NCBI GenBank assembly: GCA_012728375.1
Contig: JAAYFF010000026.1
Span: forward strand, 1 to 43,577
Source of the DNA: Bacillota bacterium
Lineage (GTDB): Bacteria > Bacillota > Dethiobacteria > DTU022 > UBA8154
Reading direction: 5' to 3'
DNA: 43,577 nucleotides
In this document: positions 2,768-27,383 of the stretch, piece after piece
How positions within the stretch are numbered: position 1 is the first letter of the stretch
How the letters are laid out: each line of letters starts with the position of its first letter
The notes under the pieces: model-generated
Told to the model about the DNA's origin: nothing
Databases searched by the model: none
What the model saw: only the letters and a program-made list of their open reading frames with translations
Program-made: the position numbers and the translations under genes

Positions 2768-4186
2768 TTAAAACCTGAAATCACGAATTCCGTTACCGAT
2801 TTTTACCAGTTTTTCTTCTACAATCTTTTTGACCTTATCATTGGGAATTTTCGCCAACTCTTTTTGGATAAGCGCCTCGCCGACTGCCTTTGTTTCTGGT
2901 TTAGCATAATCTTCCAGATACTCTTTCAGTGTCATGATGGCATTTAGGTGGCAGAAGTTCTGAATCTGCCCGCTCTTGCAGATACTCATAAATCTGTCGC
3001 CGGTCCGGCCTTCCCTATAGCAGGCAGTACAAAAGCTTGGGACATAGCCAAGTTCCATCAGCCATTTAACAACTTCATCAAGGGTTCTCGTGTCATTTAT
3101 ATCAAATTGTGCAGAATTTTCATCTTCCGGTTCGGGCTCGTAATATCCTCCAACACTTGTCTTGGAACCACCACTGATCTGGGAAACACCCAGACTGAGT
3201 ACCCGTTCCCTTGTTGCCCTGGTTTCCCTGGTTGATACGATTATTCCCGTATATGGCACAGAAATACGAATGCACGCGATAATTTTAGCGAATATATCAT
3301 CATTTATTGCGTTGACAAATACCGACATATCAATGTCATCAGCAGGACGGATTCTTGGTACACTGATAGTATGCGGGCCAACACCGAATACCGCTTCAAG
3401 GTGCTCTGCATGCATCAGCAAAGCTGCAAATTCATAGCGATAGTTTTCAAGTCCAAACAATACACCCAGGCCGACATCGTCTATGCCGCCAAGCATAGCT
3501 CTGTCCATTGCTTCGGTGTGATAGGCATAATTATGCTTTGGACCGGTCGGATGTAATTTTTCATAGCTTTCCTTATGGTAAGTCTCCTGAAAGAGTATAT
3601 AAGTACCTATACCTGCTGCTTTAAGCTTTTTATAATTTTCAACCGTGGTTGCAGCAATATTGACATTAACGCGGCGGATTGCGCCATTTTTATGCTTGAT
3701 ACTGTAAATTGTGTCAATACACTCAAGTATATACTCAATGGGATTGTTTACAGGGTCTTCTCCGGCTTCTATTGCAAGGCGTTTATGGCCCATATCCTGA
3801 AGTGCGATAACTTCCCGGCGAACATCCTCCTGTGTCATTTTCTTTCTGGTGATGTGTTGGTTCTTCTTATGATACGGACAGTAAACACAGCCATTTATGC
3901 AATAGTTGGAAAGGTATAAAGGCGCAAACAATACAATACGGTTGCCGTAAAAATCGTTTTTGATCTGCTTGGCAAGTTCATAGATCTCTTCATTTTTACC
4001 GGGGATCTCACACGCAAGCAACACCGAAGCCTCCCTGTGAGAAAGTCCTTTGCGAAGCTTCGCCTTCTCAATAATACTGTCAATAAGCTCAGCATTATTT
4101 TTGTTCTTTTCCGCATACCTAAGCGTTTCAAGAACTTCTTCATGTGAAATAAACTCTTCAGCTTTTGATGATTTTGGATTGTACAT
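2768..4186 (-). CDS. hydG: [FeFe]-hydrogenase H-cluster radical SAM maturase HydG
   Basis: 472-aa radical SAM enzyme that cleaves tyrosine to make the CO and CN ligands of the H-cluster. The SAM-cluster motif C-x3-C-x2-C is at Cys96, Cys100 and Cys103. The HydG-specific auxiliary cluster motif C-x2-C-x22-C is intact at Cys386, Cys389 and Cys412, and this separates it from ThiH. Length is normal for HydG. AGAGG lies eight bases before the ATG. It sits between hydE and hydF in one transcription unit. Confidence 0.97.
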   Translation of the reverse strand: MYNPKSSKAEEFISHEEVLETLRYAEKNKNNAELIDSIIEKAKLRKGLSHREASVLLACEIPGKNEEIYELAKQIKNDFYGNRIVLFAPLYLSNYCINGCVYCPYHKKNQHITRKKMTQEDVRREVIALQDMGHKRLAIEAGEDPVNNPIEYILECIDTIYSIKHKNGAIRRVNVNIAATTVENYKKLKAAGIGTYILFQETYHKESYEKLHPTGPKHNYAYHTEAMDRAMLGGIDDVGLGVLFGLENYRYEFAALLMHAEHLEAVFGVGPHTISVPRIRPADDIDMSVFVNAINDDIFAKIIACIRISVPYTGIIVSTRETRATRERVLSLGVSQISGGSKTSVGGYYEPEPEDENSAQFDINDTRTLDEVVKWLMELGYVPSFCTACYREGRTGDRFMSICKSGQIQNFCHLNAIMTLKEYLEDYAKPETKAVGEALIQKELAKIPNDKVKKIVEEKLVKIGNGIRDFRF

Positions 4187-4247
4187 AATAAAACCTCTTT
4201 CTTATTCGGGTCAGAAATATATCTTTCCCTTCAGTAATAGAAGCATT

Positions 4248-5291
4248 TTAAAGAATAGATTTATGATCTCCTCGGGAGATAGTTACATGATAACCTATAC
4301 CTTCCATTCGTTTTTTCATACGGCATAGGCAATCTGCAGCTTCATCCCCCGTGCAGATTTTGTTGTCATAGAGCAAATATTTTTGCCTTACACTTTTAGG
4401 TGAAAGATTGGGCATAATTACATTTGCTCCGGCAAGAATACCAAGTTCCCTGCCTTTGGGATGAATTGTCCCAAGTGCAGTGGTAGCAGGTAGCAGAACG
4501 GGCGGAAGCATTAAACGAATAATACCGACCAAAAACAATGTCAGTTCAAGCGTTCCCGCTTCCTTATCCGCAAACGGCGTTCCGCGGTGTGGTATAAACG
4601 GACCGATGCCAACCATGTGGGGATTTAGTTGCTTAATAAACAATAAATCCTCAACAAGGCAATCGGTGGTTTGAAAGGGAGAGCCCACCATGAATCCACA
4701 TCCAACCTGATAACCTATATCTTTTAAATTATATAGGCACTGCTTTCTACTATCAAGGGAAAGTGCTTTGGGATGTAGTTTTCCGTAATGTTCAGCATTT
4801 GCCGTTTCATGTCGCAGCAGATAACGCTCTGCACCGGCATCAAAAAACGCCTTATAGCTTTCATAGCTTTTTTCCCCTATAGAAAGGGTAACAGCACAGT
4901 CCGGGTAACTGGTTTTGATGGAACGGATAATATCAATTATTTTATCATCCGTAAAATACCCGTCTTCACCCCCTTGCAGCACAAAAGTACGAAAGCCGAG
5001 GTCATATCCGACCGAACAGCACTCAAGGATCTGCTCCTTTGTCAAACGGTACCGCTCCGCTCTGCAGTTACTTTTTCGAATACCGCAATAATAGCAATCA
5101 TTTTTGCAATAGTTTGTAAACTCTATCAGCCCCCGTATATACACATCATACCCATAGTTTTCAATCCGGACGGCTCTTGCTTTTTCAAAAAGATATTCCG
5201 ATAGTTCAGAATTCCGATTATCAATCAGCTCTTTGTATTCTGCCGGTGAAAGATTACTTGTTTTATAAAGCTTATCAATGAGCTGCTTCAT
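4248..5291 (-). CDS. hydE: [FeFe]-hydrogenase H-cluster radical SAM maturase HydE
   Basis: 347-aa radical SAM enzyme of the BioB/PylB-like group that acts in assembly of the di-iron subcluster. The SAM-cluster cysteines are C62-x3-C66-x2-C69 in the context NYCKNDCYYCG. LQGGED and a HydE-like C-terminus follow. I chose the ATG at 5291 because AGAGG sits six bases upstream; the track also allows TTG at 5294. It overlaps the upstream TM1266-like gene by 17 bp, which suggests translational coupling. hydG follows after 61 bp. Confidence 0.95.
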   Translation of the reverse strand: MKQLIDKLYKTSNLSPAEYKELIDNRNSELSEYLFEKARAVRIENYGYDVYIRGLIEFTNYCKNDCYYCGIRKSNCRAERYRLTKEQILECCSVGYDLGFRTFVLQGGEDGYFTDDKIIDIIRSIKTSYPDCAVTLSIGEKSYESYKAFFDAGAERYLLRHETANAEHYGKLHPKALSLDSRKQCLYNLKDIGYQVGCGFMVGSPFQTTDCLVEDLLFIKQLNPHMVGIGPFIPHRGTPFADKEAGTLELTLFLVGIIRLMLPPVLLPATTALGTIHPKGRELGILAGANVIMPNLSPKSVRQKYLLYDNKICTGDEAADCLCRMKKRMEGIGYHVTISRGDHKSIL

Positions 5292-18746: not shown

Positions 18747-18775
18747 TTGACGGGATTAAGTTCCTATGCTATAAT
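18747..18775 (+). promoter_or_regulatory. Sigma-A promoter of the aromatic amino acid operon
   Basis: TTGACG (18747-18752), 17-bp spacer, TATAAT (18770-18775). Start of transcription would be near 18782, giving a leader of about 580 nt before aroF. Confidence 0.85.
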
Positions 18776-18800
18776 TTATTTTAATATAATTTTAGCAAAA

Positions 18801-19326
18801 GATGATGAAAAAGGAAAGTAAGCCGGTATTGTTTACCACAGAGATGATGGGGTCGTCGGCTGAAAGCCCTTCAGTATAACAACCGGACGAAGTTCCCTTT
18901 GGAGTCGCGGGCTGAAACCGATAAGCGCGGATATTCGGCAATTTAATAGGTTTGGCTGCAAGAAAGTAAAAAGCAATGATGGAGAGAAGTAAGCAGCGTA
19001 TGGGCTCCAGAGAGCCGGGGGGCGGTGAAACCCGGCGTCCTAAGTTGCTGAAATACACTCTTGAGCAGCAAACCGAAAGCTGATATAGCATATTGGTAAG
19101 TAGGCTTTGACGGAGTCTTCCACCGTTAAAAGGAAGGGGGTATAAGGCTGGGATAATTTTCAGTCCGTACCTGACGCCGCTTCAGAAAAGCAGCTCTTTT
19201 AAAGGGGTATCAGGCTGGAAATTCCGGTCCGTACCTTGAAAAGAGCGGGGCATTTTTATTTTGCCCAACCAGGGTGGTACCGCGAAAAGCTAAAAAGCTT
19301 TCGTCCCTAAGGACGAAAGCTTTTTT
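18801..19326 (+). promoter_or_regulatory. T-box leader with two specifier stems (Phe TTC and Tyr TAC) and one antiterminator
   Basis: Unit 1 (about 18801-18960) has AGTAAGCCGG, CAGAGAT, the GGCTGAAAGCC hairpin, then GAA-G-TTC (specifier 18893-18895) and TTTGGAGTC. Unit 2 (about 18976-19130) has AGTAAGCAGC, CAGAGAGCCGGGG, GGTGAAACCCGG, then GAA-A-TAC (specifier 19054-19056) and CTCTTGAG. The spacing GAA-N-codon is identical in both. The conserved T-box AGGGTGGTACCGCG occurs once (19271-19284), before the terminator at 19292-19326. Two similar hairpins, 19139-19171 and 19206-19235 (both GGTAT-AGGCTGG to GTCCGTACC), lie between unit 2 and the T-box. Uncharged tRNA-Phe or tRNA-Tyr would promote read-through into aroF. 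Pairings were read by eye and not folded by program. Confidence 0.85.
19292..19326 (+). terminator. Regulated intrinsic terminator of the T-box leader
   Basis: AAAAAGCTTTCGTCC (19292-19306) pairs with GGACGAAAGCTTTTTT (19311-19326) over a 4-nt loop and ends in a T run. Its upstream side lies just after the T-box sequence, so the antiterminator and this hairpin are mutually exclusive. Confidence 0.92.
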
Positions 19327-19362
19327 AGTTGGCTAAGTTCTTCTTAATAAGGAGGATAAAAA

Positions 19363-20376
19363 ATGTTAGTCGTGATGAATCCCGGTGTGACAGATAATGA
19401 GATTAACGAGGTGGAAAAACAACTGAAAGGCTTTGGCTTTAGCGTGCATGGGCCGAAGGGGAACAACCGCCGTATTTTCAGAATATCGGGGGAAAGCGAT
19501 GTTGACACCACAATTATTGAAAAAACAATCCCCTATGTCGAAAAAATAGTTTTTCCCCATTATCCTTTTGAACTGGCCAGCAGGGATTATCAAGAAGAAA
19601 AGACCGTCTTTAAAGTAGGAGACGTCGAAATAGGTGCACAAAAAACGATAATTATGGCAGGACCATGCGCGGTGGAAGGAAGGGAATCTTACCTCCGGAC
19701 AGCTAAAGCAGTAAAAGAGGCAGGAGCTCATATTCTAAGAGGGGGAGCATATAAACCCCGTTCTTCCCCGTACGCTTTCCAGGGACTGGAGGAAGAGGGC
19801 TTGAAAATAATGGCTGAAGCAAGGGAAATGACCGGGCTGCCCATTATTACAGAAGTCCTGGACCAGTACTCTGTGGAAATTGTCGCTGAATATGCCGATA
19901 TCCTCCAGGTAGGAACGCGCAATATGCAAAACTTCAGGTTGCTGAAAGAACTTGGGCAGCTGAGAAAACCTGTTTTGCTTAAAAGGGGAATGTCGGCAAC
20001 TATTGAAGAGTGGCTAATGGCAGCGGAATATCTTCTCAGTGAAGGAAACAACAAAGTGATTCTCTGCGAAAGGGGAATCAGAACCTTTGAAACATATACG
20101 CGAAACACCCTTGATATCAGTGCAGTACCTGTCGCCAAAGAGCTGAGCCACCTCCCTGTATTTGTCGACCCCAGTCACGGAACAGGGCTTTGGAGATGCG
20201 TTCCCCCCATGAGCATGGCAGCCATAGCTGCCGGAGCAGACGGGCTGCTGATCGAAGTACATCCTTCACCAAAGGAAGCGTTATGTGACGGTCCGCAGTC
20301 GCTGATGCCGGATAAATTTGCCCAATTGGTTAATTCCTTAAAAAAGGTGGCAGAAACAGTTGGCCGAACTCTCTAG
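19363..20376 (+). CDS. aroF: 3-deoxy-7-phosphoheptulonate (DAHP) synthase
   Basis: 337-aa enzyme condensing PEP and erythrose-4-phosphate, the entry step of the shikimate pathway. The first ~70 residues form the ferredoxin-like/ACT-like regulatory domain ([19 protein letters not shown]), followed by the KDO8P-synthase-like barrel with [44 protein letters not shown] and VDPSHGTG. This is the Thermotoga-like AroA-beta type, where the N-terminal domain mediates feedback inhibition by Tyr/Phe. AAGGAGG lies seven bases before the ATG. First gene behind the T-box. Confidence 0.96.
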
Positions 20377-21241
20377 GAAGAAGAATATTGTAAAAAAATG
20401 CTGCATCATCGGGCTGGGATTAATCGGAGGCTCCCTGGGACTTGCCTTCGGCAAATACGGCATTGCCTTCGAACGGTGGGGAAATGACGCCGACCCCCGG
20501 GCAATGGAAAAGGCTGTAAAAAGTGGTGCTGTGGATAAGACAGCTCCGTTGCCTGAAGCTCTTGAGGGGGCAGAACTGGTAATTTTAGCGGCTCCTGTGG
20601 GCAAAATCCCGGCTCTACTGGAAGAAATTGCCCCCCATGTTGTAGATAATAAGACCCTGGTCACTGATGTAGGCAGCAGCAAGAGAGCAATTGTTGCAGC
20701 CATGCAAAGGGTGCTCCCGGGCCTCTGCCTTGGGGGGCACCCTATGGCCGGCTCCGAACTTTCGGGCATCGAAGCTGCCGACCCTGATCTTTTTACAAAA
20801 GCCGTCTATTTTTTAATTCCTGACGCCGATACTCCGACGCACAAAGTAGAATTAATGGAAAAGATAATTTTAGCCATCCGCGCGCGGCCAATGCTGATAA
20901 ATGCTGAAGAACACGACAGAATAATGGCTCCGCTCAGCCATCTTCCCAAACTGATTTCTTCCGGGCTTGTCAACGTTTTGGGCAGGTACCGCGAAGAGTA
21001 CCGGGCAATTTTTTCTCTGGCAGGCACCGGTTTTAAAGAAACCACCCGCATAGCCGCCGGAAATCCCCAGCTCTGGCTGGATATCTTTGAAAGCAATAAA
21101 GATAATTTAAAGGAGGCGCTGTCATTATTTCTGCAGGAAATTCAAACAATGATCGTCTATCTCGATGAGGAAGACAAAAGCGGTTTGTACGGATCGCTGC
21201 AAAAGGCGGCTTCTTTAAGAAGCCATTTGCCTGGAAAATAA
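20360..21241 (+). CDS. tyrA: Prephenate dehydrogenase
   Basis: 293-aa NAD(P)-dependent enzyme making 4-hydroxyphenylpyruvate from prephenate for tyrosine synthesis. The Rossmann motif is [23 protein letters not shown] and [12 protein letters not shown] are typical of TyrA. There is no C-terminal ACT domain, so feedback control by tyrosine through such a domain is unlikely. TTG start overlaps the end of aroF by 17 bp; AAGGTGG lies about eleven bases before it. Confidence 0.94.
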
Positions 21242-21260
21242 ATAGGGGAGGAGATGGCAA

Positions 21261-22550
21261 GTGGAGATGATCATTAAGCCTGCTGAAAAAATTGAAGGAC
21301 AAACGAGGGTCCCGGGAGATAAATCTATTTCACACAGGGCGCTGATTCTTTCTTCATTAACGGAGGGGACAGTTGAAATCGAAGGTCTCCTTAAGTCGGC
21401 CGATACTATGTCCACTTTAAAATGTTTACAAGAACTGGGCGTGGAGTTTGAGGAAAACGGAAGGACGGTTAAGGTCAAGGGCAAAGGCCTGCGCGGCTTT
21501 GCTGAGCCGGACAATGTCCTTGATGCAGGGAATTCAGGAACGACGGCGCGCCTTCTGACGGGCTTGCTCTCCGGGCAACCCTTTCATTCAGTTTTAACCG
21601 GTGACGATTCCTTGCGCAGGCGTCCCATGAAAAGAGTAACAGAACCCCTCAGAAAAATGGGCGCCTCTATCAGCGGTAGGCAAAACGGTGAACTTTTACC
21701 CCTGGCGATTAGAGGTAACGACTTACTGCCCATCAGCTATACCCTTCCCGTGGCCAGCGCGCAGGTAAAGTCCGCTTTACTAATTGCAGCTCTTTTTGCC
21801 GGAGGGGCTTCCGAAATAATAGACTATTATCAAACCAGAGACCATACCGAAAGGGCGCTGCGCTACTTAAACGCAGATATAAAAAAAACCGGAAAATACC
21901 ATATTGTCATCAAAAGTCCTACCAACCTTCGGGGGGAAAGGTTTCAAATACCAGGAGACATTTCAGCAGCAGCTTTCTTTATTGTCGCGGCAGCGCTGGC
22001 TCCGCGGGGGGAATTGTATCTGGAAGAAGTGGGCGTAAACCCTTCGAGAACCGGCATCATTGATCTATTGAGGGAAATGGGGGCTCAAATCAGCATACAC
22101 AACAGGAGAGAATATAACTGCGAACCCGTTGCTGATTTGCTGGTGAAAGGAAGCAGACCTTTAAGGGGAATTTCCGTAGGCAAAGAGGCAATCCCGCGCC
22201 TGGTGGATGAGATACCCGTTCTCGCGGTGGCCGGACTTTTTGCCCATGGAGAGACGGTGATTCAAGGTGCTGAAGAGCTGCGCCTGAAAGAATCTGACCG
22301 GCTGAAATCCATCTTTCTCGAGCTAAAGAAAATGGGAGCTTTGATCGAAGAACTGCCGGACGGCTTAATTATTCGGGGCTGCGCAAGGCTATCCGGTGCC
22401 GAACTGGAAAGCCACGGCGACCACCGCATTGCCATGGCCCTCTCTGTAGCAACCCTTTTTGCTGAAAGTGAATCGGTTATAAAAGGGGCAGAAACGGTAA
22501 GCATCTCATTTCCCGACTTTTTTACTGTTTTAAATGAACTCACCTGTTGA
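21261..22550 (+). CDS. aroA: 3-phosphoshikimate 1-carboxyvinyltransferase (EPSP synthase)
   Basis: 429-aa two-domain enzyme joining PEP to shikimate-3-phosphate. DKSISHRALI near the N-terminus, DAGNSGTTARLLTGLL (PEP/glyphosate loop), RRRPMKRV, LKESDRL and the C-terminal DHRIAMA are all intact. In the loop, the residue after NSGTT is Ala, which is common to class I and II forms. GTG start behind GGGGAGGAG; it lies 19 bp after tyrA. Confidence 0.97.
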   Translation: MEMIIKPAEKIEGQTRVPGDKSISHRALILSSLTEGTVEIEGLLKSADTMSTLKCLQELGVEFEENGRTVKVKGKGLRGFAEPDNVLDAGNSGTTARLLTGLLSGQPFHSVLTGDDSLRRRPMKRVTEPLRKMGASISGRQNGELLPLAIRGNDLLPISYTLPVASAQVKSALLIAALFAGGASEIIDYYQTRDHTERALRYLNADIKKTGKYHIVIKSPTNLRGERFQIPGDISAAAFFIVAAALAPRGELYLEEVGVNPSRTGIIDLLREMGAQISIHNRREYNCEPVADLLVKGSRPLRGISVGKEAIPRLVDEIPVLAVAGLFAHGETVIQGAEELRLKESDRLKSIFLELKKMGALIEELPDGLIIRGCARLSGAELESHGDHRIAMALSVATLFAESESVIKGAETVSISFPDFFTVLNELTC

Positions 22551-22622
22551 TGATAGTCCCTGGAATTTGCAAAAAGCTGTTGTCAGCCGAAATAACTGAA
22601 AATGAGAAAGGAAGGAGGAAGG

Positions 22623-22661
22623 GTGCAAGCACGTTTTACAGTGCTTTGGAAAAGCTGCTAA
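22623..22661 (+). other. Possible minicistron upstream of aroC
   Basis: The best ribosome binding site in this gap, AAGGAGGAAG, is followed by GTG at 22623 opening a 12-codon frame (MQARFTVLWKSC) that stops at 22659-22661, in frame with aroC. aroC itself has only weak sites. The mRNA here can also form AAGCAC/GTGCTT. Reinitiation from this minicistron could drive aroC translation. Alternatively it is chance. Confidence 0.3.
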
Positions 22662-22688
22662 AGCTTGTTCTACCCTTTTGAGAAAAAG

Positions 22689-23870
22689 ATGCGCTTTCTT
22701 ACAGCAGGTGAATCACATGGACCCGCGCTGATGGGGATAATCGAAGGAATTCCTGCAGGGCTGCCCGTTAATGAAGACTATATTAACGGGCAATTGTCCA
22801 GGCGACAGGGAGGTTACGGCCGGGGAGCGCGTATGTCCATTGAAAAAGACAGGGTCAAATTTCTTTCCGGGGTCCGTTTTGGCAAAACTACCGGCAGCCC
22901 CCTGGCGCTGCTCATTGAAAACAAGGATTGGGCAAACTGGGAAAAAGTGCTCTCCCAGCGCTCCGGCGACGAGTCCCGGGAAAGGGAAATAACAACCCCC
23001 CGCCCGGGTCATGCCGATCTCGCCGGTGGGATTAAATACCGCCACAGCGACCTCCGCAATGTGCTTGAGCGCGCCAGCGCCAGGGAAACGGCCATGAGGG
23101 TTGCCATTGGTTCGTTATCAGCCCTATTTTTGGAACATTTTGACATATATACGGTTGCTTTTGTCACAGAGATCGGAGGCGTGCGGGCTGACAGCCGCAT
23201 TTATAAGGATTGGAACGCGGCAGAAATCAAAAAAAACAGGAGTCCCCTTCTTTATTGCCTGGACAAAAACGCTGAAAGCTTAATGGTTGAACGGATCGAC
23301 CAGGCGAAAAGGGAAGGAGACTCCTTGGGAGGAGTTTTTGAAATACACGTGCAAGGAGCACCTGCAGGCCTCGGCAGCCATGTTCACTGGGACAGGCGGC
23401 TCGACTGCATCCTGGCGGGCGCGCTGATGAGCATCCCCGCGATAAAAGGTGTAGAGATAGGTTTAGGGTTTGAGGCTGCAGCCAGGAAAGGTTCGGAAAC
23501 CCATGATGAACTTTTCCTTGATGAAAAGGGCAGAATTGCCAGGGCAACCAACCGCGCCGGCGGGCTGGAGGGGGGTATTACCAACGGCGAAACCATCATC
23601 CTGCGTGCTGCCATGAAACCCATTCCCACATTGATGAAACCCCTTTCCAGCGTGGATCTCTCGACTCATTCCCTTAATCCGGCCGCGGTGGAACGTTCCG
23701 ACGTATGCGCGGTTCCTGCTGCTTCAGTTGTGGGCGAAGCCGTCGTTTCCTGGGAAATGGCCAAAGCCTTTTTGCAAAAATTTTCCGGGGACTCCTTACC
23801 GGAGGTGGAAAGGGCGTACAGCGAATATCAAAATGTACTCAAAGATTATCTGGAGGTAAAGGATGATTAA
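22689..23870 (+). CDS. aroC: Chorismate synthase
   Basis: 393-aa FMN-dependent enzyme converting EPSP to chorismate. Family marks: MRFLTAGESHGPALMGIIEGIPAGLP region start, RRQGGYGRGARM, TPRPGHADLAGGIKY, DLRNVLERASARETAMRVA and the C-terminal NGETIILRAAMKPIPT. The ATG at 22689 gives the standard N-terminus but has only a weak GAG site; TTG at 22665 is an in-frame alternative eight codons upstream. It overlaps aroB by 8 bp. Confidence 0.96.
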   Translation: MRFLTAGESHGPALMGIIEGIPAGLPVNEDYINGQLSRRQGGYGRGARMSIEKDRVKFLSGVRFGKTTGSPLALLIENKDWANWEKVLSQRSGDESREREITTPRPGHADLAGGIKYRHSDLRNVLERASARETAMRVAIGSLSALFLEHFDIYTVAFVTEIGGVRADSRIYKDWNAAEIKKNRSPLLYCLDKNAESLMVERIDQAKREGDSLGGVFEIHVQGAPAGLGSHVHWDRRLDCILAGALMSIPAIKGVEIGLGFEAAARKGSETHDELFLDEKGRIARATNRAGGLEGGITNGETIILRAAMKPIPTLMKPLSSVDLSTHSLNPAAVERSDVCAVPAASVVGEAVVSWEMAKAFLQKFSGDSLPEVERAYSEYQNVLKDYLEVKDD

Positions 23871-24990
23871 AGTTGAGATTAAAACAACGCAAAACAGATA
23901 TCCCGTTTACCTCCGGCAGGGAATCCTGCCCCTTACAGGACGGTTTCTCCGGGGCTGTTTTTCACCCTGTCCCGTCCTGCTGATCACAGACAGAAACGTC
24001 TTTGGACATTACGGGGAAATTTGCAGAAAAAGCCTGTTGCAGGAAGGTTTCAAGCCTATCGTTGCCGTGGTGGAAGGCGGGGAAAAGGACAAATCTTTAA
24101 AATCGGCATCCAAGTTGTACAGTTACGCCATGGAAGAAGGCTTGGACAGAAAATCCGTTGTGCTGGCGTTGGGGGGAGGAGTAACCGGAGATCTGGCAGG
24201 GTTTGTCGCAGCCACTTATATGAGGGGCCTCCCTTTCGTTCAGGTCCCCACAACGCTCCTTGCCATGGTGGACAGCAGCGTCGGCGGCAAGGTCGCGGTT
24301 AACCATCCCCGGGGGAAAAATATGATCGGTGCGTTTTATCAACCTTCCCTGGTCCTGGCTGACCCGGTTGTCTTAAAAACTCTCCCCCAAAGGGAATTTA
24401 CAGCCGGGCTTGCCGAGCTGATTAAATACGGAATAATTCTTGATAAATCCCTTTTCCGGCAGTTTGAACATTTTGCCTTAACTTGCAATAAACAGCCCCA
24501 AGAAGGACAGGAAAGCATTTTTCTGCAATTAAACAATACTTTCACCCTCCTTAGATTTATAGCCAAGGCAGTTCTTATCAAAGGAAGGGTGGTCGCGCAG
24601 GATGAAAAGGAAAACGGCCTGAGGAGGATTTTAAATTTTGGGCATACTTTTGGTCATGCCCTGGAAATGGCCACCTCCTATGAATATTATCTTCACGGCG
24701 AGGCTGTGGCTGTGGGGATGATAGCAGCCACCCGGCTGGCTGCCAGGCTGAAAATACTCGGAGAAAAAACGGCTGAACGCATCTTGGCTCTTCTGTTCCG
24801 CTTGAATCCGCCTCCGCCGCCACCCGGTTTGACGGCAGAATCAGTATTAAATGCCTTGCCGGCCGATAAAAAAAAGGAGGGAAGGGAACTGGTCTTCATC
24901 CTCCCTTCTGCAATCGGGAAAACAACAGTCTGCAAATCACCTCCCGTGGAGGAGCTGTCAGCCGCAATAAATGAATATCTAAAGAATTAG
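23863..24990 (+). CDS. aroB: 3-dehydroquinate synthase
   Basis: 375-aa NAD- and metal-dependent enzyme turning DAHP into 3-dehydroquinate. GGGVTGDLAGFVAATYMRG, VPTTLLAMVDSSVGGKVAVN, KNMIGAFYQP and the metal-binding FGHTFGHALE and HGEAVAVGM are all present. Two Pro-rich stretches near residue 315 (NPPPPPPG) are slightly unusual but lie in a surface loop region. It overlaps aroC by 8 bp (GGAGG inside aroC as its site). Confidence 0.97.
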   Translation: MIKVEIKTTQNRYPVYLRQGILPLTGRFLRGCFSPCPVLLITDRNVFGHYGEICRKSLLQEGFKPIVAVVEGGEKDKSLKSASKLYSYAMEEGLDRKSVVLALGGGVTGDLAGFVAATYMRGLPFVQVPTTLLAMVDSSVGGKVAVNHPRGKNMIGAFYQPSLVLADPVVLKTLPQREFTAGLAELIKYGIILDKSLFRQFEHFALTCNKQPQEGQESIFLQLNNTFTLLRFIAKAVLIKGRVVAQDEKENGLRRILNFGHTFGHALEMATSYEYYLHGEAVAVGMIAATRLAARLKILGEKTAERILALLFRLNPPPPPPGLTAESVLNALPADKKKEGRELVFILPSAIGKTTVCKSPPVEELSAAINEYLKN

Positions 24991-25042
24991 TAACTGCTCA
25001 GAGGTTCTGTATAACAGATTATCTTTTAAACTGAGCAGTTAC
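24990..25042 (+). repeat. Inverted repeat between aroB and aroE
   Basis: GTAACTGCTCAG (24990-25001) and CTGAGCAGTTAC (25031-25042) are perfect 12-bp inverted copies with a 29-nt loop that itself holds TCTGT/ACAGA. The stem starts at the last base of the aroB stop. There is no T run after it, so it is more likely an mRNA stabilising or processing element than a terminator. Confidence 0.6.
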
Positions 25043-25076
25043 AAAAATTATGAAGTATATTGGAAGGGGTAAAAAA

Positions 25077-25961
25077 ATGTTTGATGGTCAAACAAAAATA
25101 ACGGGCATCTTCGGCGACCCTGTGGCACACTCTTTATCTCCGGCCATGCAAAACGCGGCCTTTAAGTCAAAGGGCTTAAATTATGTGTATCTTCCTTTTC
25201 CCGTTCGCAGGGAACATCTCCCTGAAGCCGCCAGGGCTCTTATTCCATTGGGTCTGGCAGGCATTAATGTTACCTCTCCCCATAAAGAAACAATTATTCC
25301 CTTTCTCCATGAACTTTCCTCCGAAGCAGAATTTATGGGAGCAGTAAATACCGTTGCCGCTCGGGACGGCCGATTAAAGGGCTTTAATACCGACGTTGTC
25401 GGGTTTCTTTACCTGCTACAAAATTTGGCACCCCTTTCAGTAAAAGGGGAGAAGGTCTGCCTTCTAGGGGCAGGGGGAGCTGCCAGGGCGGTCTCTGTGG
25501 CGCTGGCCCGGTCCAAAGTTGGACACGTGGCCATTTGTTGCCGCACAATGGAAAAGGGAGGGGCTATACGGGAAATGTTAAGTAAAAACGGGCTGCTCAG
25601 CCTGAAGGAAACAAGCGTATGGCTGCTGAACGGGGATACTTTTCCGGAAGTGTTGGGAGACAGTGCCTTTATTATTAACGCTCTGAGCGTCGATCCCGTT
25701 GAAAAAGGTTTGCTTCCCGCCAACAAAAGATATGACGGTTTAAAAGCAGCCATTGACGTGCGCTATACCCCCCCGGAAACTCCTTTCCTGAAATGGGCCT
25801 CCTCTGCAAATAAAGGATGCCGGACGGTAAACGGGCTGGATATGCTGCTCGGGCAGGGTACAGCAACCTTTGAAATTTTTACAGGCCTGAAAGCACCGTT
25901 TCAGGTCATGAAAGAGGCTTTGCAAAAACAGCTGGCCGGTAAACCGGGTGAAAATGAATGA
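25077..25961 (+). CDS. aroE: Shikimate 5-dehydrogenase
   Basis: 294-aa NADP-dependent enzyme reducing 3-dehydroshikimate. Substrate-binding HSLSPAMQNAAF, catalytic Lys in INVTSPHKETI, FNTDVVGF and the nucleotide loop LLGAGGAARAVSVAL are intact. The ATG at 25077 has GGAAGGGG seven bases upstream and gives the usual length; the ATG at 25050 adds nine residues. The stop overlaps the aroK start (ATGA). Confidence 0.95.
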   Translation: MFDGQTKITGIFGDPVAHSLSPAMQNAAFKSKGLNYVYLPFPVRREHLPEAARALIPLGLAGINVTSPHKETIIPFLHELSSEAEFMGAVNTVAARDGRLKGFNTDVVGFLYLLQNLAPLSVKGEKVCLLGAGGAARAVSVALARSKVGHVAICCRTMEKGGAIREMLSKNGLLSLKETSVWLLNGDTFPEVLGDSAFIINALSVDPVEKGLLPANKRYDGLKAAIDVRYTPPETPFLKWASSANKGCRTVNGLDMLLGQGTATFEIFTGLKAPFQVMKEALQKQLAGKPGENE

Positions 25962-26542
25962 AATTTGCCGAACTAATTGCATCTGAGGGCTGCCATTTAA
26001 CGAAAGGGAAGTTGCCGGCCAATATTTTCCTGACGGGGTTTATGGGTGCGGGTAAAACCAGTGTAGGAAAACTTTTGGCCCCCCGGCTTGGAATTGATTG
26101 CTATGATACGGACGAAATTATAGCTGCCGCGTCGGGAATGAGTATCCCTGAAATCTTTACAAGCAAAGGGGAAGCCTTTTTCCGCAATATGGAAAGCGAG
26201 CTGCTGAAATTGCTGGGAGAAAAACCGCCCGGAACCTGCGTTGTCTCCACAGGAGGCGGAGCCGTGCTGCGACGGGAAAACACAACGGCAATGCGCAGAA
26301 ATGGGCTTATTGTTTTTCTCCATATTACAGCTGAGGAGGCCTGCAAAAGGATAGGCCAAAGCAAAAACAGACCTCTATTAAATACCGCTGATCCTCTGAG
26401 GTTCATCAGAGAGCTGCTGGAAAAACGCACGCCTTTTTACAGCAATGCGGATCTCGTCGTGGAAACTTCGGGTTTAACTGTTGCCGAAACAGTAGACAAG
26501 GTCATTAAAGCCCTCAAGGAGTGGAAAAATGAACAAAAATAA
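25958..26542 (+). CDS. aroK: Shikimate kinase
   Basis: 194-aa ATP-dependent kinase making shikimate-3-phosphate. The Walker A loop is [12 protein letters not shown], followed by DTDEII (substrate-binding Asp), [24 protein letters not shown] and the lid with RPLL. The first ~20 residues before NIFLTGF are an extension not needed by the family, so the real start might be internal; the ATG used overlaps aroE by 4 bp, which supports coupling. Confidence 0.94.
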
Positions 26543-27383
26543 AAAACTGCTGGTCCTTCACGGCCCCAACCTGAACCTGCTAGGAAAAAGGGAGCCGCAA
26601 ATATATGGAAAGCTAACCCTGGAAGAGCTTAATAACCTGATCTATCGGGAAGCTGAAAGACTGGGAGTGTCGGTAGATTGTCATCAGTCCAATCATGAAG
26701 GCAGCTTAATCGATCTTATTCACGGTGCGGAGTCCAAATATGACGGTATTGTTTTTAATCCCGGGGCTTTTACCCACTACAGCATAGCCCTGCGGGATGC
26801 TGTGGCAGGAGTAACAGTTCCAACCATTGAAGTCCACCTTTCCAACATATCCAGCCGGGAAGATTTTCGCCACCGCTCTGTAATTGCCCCGGTAGCCTGG
26901 GGACAAATTAGCGGTTTGGGGCCGCAGGGTTACCTGCTGGCAATGCGAGCTCTTGTTGACAGAGGAAAAGAGGTTTTTTCCCCGGAAGGAAGCGAAGAAA
27001 CTGCCGGGAAACAGCTTATCAGCAAAACAAGGGCGGTCAGGGGTGCCATCGATGTAAGCTCGAACGGTGAAAATGAAATTCTTGAGGCAACGGAGGAACT
27101 GCTTCAGGAGATGGTTACAAGAAATAGTATTAACAAGAGCGATATAGCAGCAGTAATTTTTTCCGTAACCAGCGATCTGAACGCCGTCTTCCCGGCAAAA
27201 GCGGCGCGCCGGATGGGTTGGAGAGATGTTCCGTTGTTCGATGTTGTAGAAATTGATGTGCCCGGAGCGCTGCCCCGCTGCATCAGGGTGCTGATGCTCA
27301 TTAATACAAATAAGGGTATTCATGAAATTAAACACGTTTATTTAAAAGGCGCCGCTGTTTTGAGGAAGGATCTCCGGCAGTAA
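26529..27383 (+). CDS. Fused type II 3-dehydroquinate dehydratase and AroH-type chorismate mutase
   Basis: 284 aa, two enzymes in one chain. Residues 1-148 are a complete type II dehydroquinase: [14 protein letters not shown] with Arg21 and catalytic Tyr26, [10 protein letters not shown], His103 in [11 protein letters not shown], and Arg114. A linker of about 17 residues follows. Residues 166-284 are a complete AroH chorismate mutase: Arg171 (like Arg7 of the Bacillus enzyme), [11 protein letters not shown] with Phe221 and Lys224, Glu241, Arg253 and Tyr271. The position of Bacillus Cys75 is Asp238. There is no stop or frameshift between the parts. It overlaps aroK by 14 bp and closes the operon. 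Confidence 0.93.

Follow-up and report, generated by a model that had tools for sequence, protein, structure and literature searches.

T-boxes usually pair one tRNA with one switch. In the described mechanism the specifier reads an uncharged tRNA, a bulge captures the 3' end of that tRNA and the antiterminator is favoured (PMC7583486). A canonical T-box of the Rfam family RF00230 comprises a stem I with AGUA, AGAGA and specifier elements, stems II and III, a UGGN bulge and a terminator/antiterminator. All of these are present in the leader described here, which lies in a 43,577-nucleotide stretch of contig JAAYFF010000026.1 (the window, meaning the whole stretch of DNA that was analysed), but this leader also has, in front, an additional stem I whose specifier differs, the rear being shared. 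Fully tandem T-boxes, known from trp, thrS and other operons (PMC12452182), likewise set several sensors ahead of one operon; in them, however, each unit has its own terminator/antiterminator, whereas the leader of the window has one T-box, one terminator and two stem I units. A 2025 survey finds that contiguous T-boxes tend towards complete tandem units and expects their ligands to be identical (PMC12452182), whereas two different tRNAs would be read in the window. Partially tandem T-boxes are acknowledged in a 2020 review, in which their mode of action is called unknown and their kind is left unstated (PMC7583486); the leader of the window resembles them in that T-box modules are partly duplicated.

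Two further systems invite comparison. The B. cereus lysK T box is a single leader shown to respond to two uncharged tRNAs, those for Lys and Asn; its published abstract does not mention two recognition arms (PMC2916919), whereas in the window each tRNA would have an arm of its own. Adjacent-aptamer riboswitches, of which the glycine riboswitches are the main family (PMC12452182), also place two sensors ahead of one expression platform, and this two-sensor anatomy fits; these riboswitches, however, sense one small molecule, in contrast to the two different tRNAs of the window, and the working limit set in that survey is fewer than 20 nt between aptamers (PMC12452182), where the 14 composite leaders have spacers of 45-105 nt. 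Our literature search, whose scope did not include the two main T-box surveys, turned up no earlier account of one antiterminator combined with two stem I units that differ in specifier, and we do not claim priority for the composite leader. It extends the acknowledged partially tandem T-boxes to an arrangement of two different sensors and one switch.

Anatomy of the composite leader

The composite leader spans 18782-19330, and its stem II, stem III, antiterminator with T-box sequence and terminator are common to both stem I units (Table 1). An earlier note, made from the letters of the window, had claimed a Phe and a Tyr stem I unit with identical spacing of the specifier codon and a single antiterminator, and the RF00230 matches described below agree with it: the specifier context is GAA-G-UUC in unit 1 (18889-18895) and GAA-A-UAC in unit 2 (19050-19056). 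The T-box sequence occurs once in the leader, one strong terminator hairpin is found 3' of it, as had also been claimed, and no T-box-like or terminator-like match is present in the 60 nt between the units. Because the promoter-like site lies 5' of unit 1, both units should sit in the transcript; two promoter-like sites were observed against 1.2 expected in shuffles.

Table 1. Features of the composite leader and of the operon that follows it.
Feature	Position in window	Strand	Basis or remark
Promoter-like site TTGACG-17-TATAAT	18747-18775	+	11/12 matches; 5' of units 1 and 2
Unit 1: T-box stem I, Phe specifier UUC at 18893-18895	18796-18906	+	RF00230 match, covariation over 14 homologues
Inter-unit spacer, 60 nt; 5' half of stem II (GCGGGCUGAA) retained	18907-18966	+	
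Unit 2: T-box stem I, Tyr specifier UAC at 19054-19056	18967-19067	+	RF00230 match, alignment, pair counts
Stem II region with AGUA element, shared rear module	19068-19105	+	cmscan alignment
Stem III, single	about 19106-19129	+	cmscan alignment, fold
Linker hairpin 1, GGGUAU...CCGUACC	19138-19172	+	fold z=-2.4; present in homologues
Linker hairpin 2, second copy of hairpin 1 type	19204-19237	+	fold z=-2.4
Antiterminator with T-box sequence AGGGUGGUACCGCG at 19271-19284	19241-19284	+	
Intrinsic terminator hairpin and U tract	19288-19330	+	fold z=-6.1
aroF-type DAHP synthase, first gene of operon	19363-20376	+	
tyrA, aroA, aroC, aroB, aroE, aroK, dehydroquinase II-chorismate mutase fusion	20360-27383	+	apparently one operon
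Class II dehydroquinase/type I chorismate mutase fusion, end of operon	26529-27383		

With the RF00230 model, the two expected stem I hits were obtained. At the Rfam gathering cut-off cmscan called one T-box, at 18967-19311 and with specifier UAC; unit 2 and the rear module scored 129.1 bits against a gathering score of 93, covered model positions 1-219 and included the T-box sequence and terminator/antiterminator required of the family. The second hit appeared when 18796-18966 was searched alone, with a match to model positions 1-143 at 46.8 bits (E=1.6e-9), and unit 1 was also recovered in a whole-genome search with the same model (E=5.2e-9). Taken alone, unit 1 thus has the stem I with specifier loop of the family, but its 46.8 bits stand below the gathering score of 93 and it is without an antiterminator of its own. 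Annotation at the Rfam cut-off therefore overlooks extra sensors such as unit 1. A custom stem I model scored unit 1 at 80.6 bits and unit 2 at 86.7 bits, values that are not independent because its 15 training sequences included both units.

Folded without constraints, 18782-19330 includes the stem I helices of unit 1. Over the whole leader, minimum energy gives the terminator state only, and this fold is for that reason uninformative on the antiterminator. When folded alone, unit 1 showed no energy excess over shuffles (z=-0.48), and its support thus comes from homology and covariation, not from stability.

On one point the earlier note has to be corrected. It had taken two related hairpins 3' of unit 2 as a sign that stem III was duplicated, a reading we reject: stem III is single, and the doubled element is a linker hairpin, placed 3' of stem III and 5' of the antiterminator. 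This linker hairpin is doubled in 13 of the 14 composites, doubled in some single-sensor leaders and single in others. A link between its doubling and the second sensor is not supported, for leaders L007 (from the same genome as the window), L167 and L173 are Tyr-only yet have two linker hairpins; the hairpins are thus not tied to a second stem I. L007 (1501-1844) stands ahead of a gene for a TRAP-type transporter binding protein and may, for this reason, precede a tyrosine uptake system.

Conservation, covariation and origin

Using the DNA of 18796-19067 as query against 71 genomes of the order, we found composites at 14 loci in 10 genomes, the window included, all of them in one Bacillota order (near Dethiobacter); widening the search to 98 genomes of the class added no composite outside the order. 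The 13 further full-length composites are found once each in G004, G009, G013, G034 and G046 and twice each in G012, G016, G017 and G019. In every composite leader the gene is preceded by one T-box and two matches to stem I, and the specifiers are invariant, with UUC in unit 1 followed by UAC in unit 2 in 14/14. The gene downstream is aroF in 9/14 (window counted) and a second aroA, encoding EPSP synthase, in 4/14; for the composite L190 the contig ends ahead of the downstream gene. Chance or an assembly artefact is ruled out, as ten genomes carry the arrangement. The composite leader is real and conserved, and because the two-arm design recurs in ten related species it is probably a natural two-input sensor, not a sequencing oddity. 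The leader is very probably functional.

To assess covariation, the 14 unit 1 sequences were set against a stem I structure written by hand. Paired bases occupied 95.6% of cells, and two-sided (compensatory) changes were seen in 11 of the 21 pairs, amounting to 28 cells compared with a mean of 8.0 in shuffles that ignore relatedness (0/500 shuffles as high). Shifting the partners by 1-3 columns abolished this signal. Several distinct base-pair exchanges occur among the unit 1 sequences, including a clean AGAG/CUCU to AAAG/CUUU exchange in the basal helix of four leaders. Unit 2 was 95.0% paired, with fewer changes than unit 1. By these comparative measures, selection maintains unit 1 as a stem I. 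Both outcomes that had been named in advance as grounds for giving up the two-sensor reading failed to appear: two specifier loops are placed, the first in a stem I with compensatory changes, and neither specifier varies among homologues.

It could be argued that unit 1 is a decoy, or a relic of an earlier Phe T-box, without a role in switching; it has no stem III or antiterminator, and it has been lost in the relative L177. A relic would decay, however, whereas the specifier of unit 1 is invariant in 14 loci and its helices are strongly compensated, and we regard such an explanation as very improbable.

The two units differ in their affinities. Unit 1 has a mean identity of 0.48 to unit 2, 0.60 to other Phe stem I units and 0.47 to other Tyr units, and unit 2 is closest to Tyr stem I units (identity 0.69). 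In a stem I tree, which rests on about 100 nt and has weak deep branches, the unit 1 sequences fall among the Phe T-boxes of the clade, some of which are oriented divergently from aroF, and the unit 2 sequences fall among the Tyr T-boxes. Tandem duplication of unit 2 followed by a specifier change is ruled out by these identities (0.48 versus 0.60) and by the grouping in the tree. Because unit 1 groups with Phe and unit 2 with Tyr T-boxes, the leader arose by fusion of two sensors and not by mutation of a copied one, and on sequence grounds it looks like a Phe sensor joined 5' of a Tyr T-box.

Among the other aroF leaders with a match (80 loci examined), nearly all have specifiers for either Phe or Tyr and not for both. 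Five relatives with the same rear module have one stem I, four of them being Phe-only (L130, L165, L170 and L204) and one Tyr-only (L177). L165 (G021, before aroA) matches the composite but is without the stem I of unit 2; it keeps unit 1, apparent leftovers of the beginning of unit 2 (AAUUAAGUAAAGCG) and a rear module with both linker hairpins. L170 (G022) and L204 (G014) are ahead of aroA genes and L130 (G020) is ahead of aroF. In L177 (G050, aroF) the Tyr unit is intact and the stem I of unit 1 is missing, although the first bases of unit 1 and the spacer that follows it remain. With both Phe-only and Tyr-only relatives in existence, each sensor occurs with such a rear module in the absence of the other. 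G014 holds a Phe-only leader (L204, on C53) and a Tyr-only leader (L167, on C212), each ahead of an aroA-like gene; the paralogues look as though they had shared out the two sensors.

Proposed coupling of two sensors to one switch

The genes downstream bear out the earlier suggestion that the operon feeds both amino acids. As read from its genes, which run from DAHP synthase to the dehydroquinase/chorismate mutase fusion and include tyrA, the operon makes prephenate, the common precursor of Phe and Tyr, and continues towards Tyr by way of tyrA. ARAGORN was run on loci covering the best 30 of the 39 tRNA matches in the source genome, and among these best 30 it identified one tRNA-Phe (GAA) and one tRNA-Tyr (GUA). 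Both have A73 before CCA, and the single T-box bulge, UGGU, fits both.

We moderately favour a mechanism in which two independent stem I arms feed one switch and either uncharged tRNA suffices. Unit 1 would bind uncharged tRNA-Phe and unit 2 uncharged tRNA-Tyr, and the ACCA end of the bound tRNA would be presented to the sole UGGU bulge, stabilising the antiterminator and allowing transcription to enter the aroF-tyrA-aro operon. As the two tRNAs would compete for one bulge, the expected logic is OR-like, and under such logic a shortage of either amino acid would turn on the prephenate pathway. In favour are two stem I matches with one T-box, both specifiers kept in all 14 composites, the compensatory changes in unit 1, the relatives with either stem I alone on the same rear module, the A73 of both tRNAs and the gene content of the operon, and all of the evidence is compatible with the sensing of two tRNAs by a single leader. 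That the tRNA of unit 1 reaches the shared antiterminator, and that the logic is OR, we infer. The coupling of unit 1 to the switch is not obvious, because this unit has no complete stem II and is about 340 nt away from the antiterminator, a distance that includes the whole of unit 2. Nor are the single-sensor relatives proof of action across unit 2, because their unit 1 adjoins the rear module.

One way of bridging this distance would be a nested sensor, in which the stem II 5' strand of unit 1 pairs with the 3' strand of the shared stem II so that unit 2 is looped out, the two arms being mutually exclusive folds. A GCAGGCUGAA-like 5' strand is indeed kept 3' of unit 1 in 14/14 composites, its own 3' half being gone, and the duplex of this strand with the shared 3' strand, at a predicted -6.8 to -10.2 kcal/mol, beats that of unit 2 in 13/14. 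Moreover, the 3' strand CUUUGAC has become CGUGGAC or CGUUAAC in the Phe-only leaders L165 and L170, a change towards the unit 1 strand GUGCGCU. The duplex energies are not significant per leader, however (the fraction of shuffles as good is 0.04-0.29), the change in L165 shifts the predicted energy merely from -7.5 to -7.9, and the 3' strand is nearly invariant in the composites, which therefore offer no covariation to test. We consider nesting rather unlikely and take the borrowing of the shared stem II 3' strand by unit 1, as modelled, as a lead only. More tentatively than the mechanism of independent arms, we also entertain a two-input tRNA gate in which the arms compete through the shared stem II strand and the one antiterminator, either tRNA completing the T-box.

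Cooperative or AND-like control would assign the switching to unit 2 with tRNA-Tyr, while tRNA-Phe on unit 1 would modulate folding or pausing, so that full induction would require both shortages. Such a division of labour is suggested by the fact that unit 2 adjoins the complete rear module and makes a full T-box by itself while unit 1 has no complete stem II, and tandem riboswitch gates with AND-like logic have been reported (cited in PMC7583486). It is opposed by the Phe-only relatives of four genomes, whose rear module is the same, so that a Phe stem I can drive the switch, and by the single T-box bulge, which holds one tRNA end at a time; we judge it distinctly unlikely.

Whichever form the coupling takes, the 14 composite leaders and the single-sensor relatives with the same rear module make up a natural test set. 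They raise the questions of whether a tRNA bound several hundred nucleotides upstream can serve an antiterminator, and of how a single leader combines the signals of two amino acids that share a pathway.

Other arrangements in related leaders

Different partial duplications are found 5' of other aroF genes. L050, L069, L070, L074 and L087 have one Phe stem I and then two antiterminator-terminator modules about 110-135 nt apart, the mirror image of the composite of the window. T-boxes with duplicated terminator-antiterminator elements were reportedly described by Vitreschak in 2008; that class would duplicate the switch, as do L050, L069 and L074, whereas the leader of the window duplicates the sensor. 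In L052 and L059, also 5' of aroF, stem I is matched twice and the T-box sequence occurs twice, at a distance of about 350 nt; a single aroF gene is apparently preceded here by a tandem pair of complete Phe T-boxes.

In L185 (874-2172) and L187 the gene under the composite leader is a second aroA, and the products are EPSP synthase paralogues in which the conserved N-terminal motif GDKSISHRAL is replaced by GDTDIALGAL; judging from this replacement, EPSP synthase activity may possibly be changed or lost. In L196 a Trp-type (UGG) T-box (3860-4340) is found directly 3' of aroF and is followed by an apparent trpE fragment.
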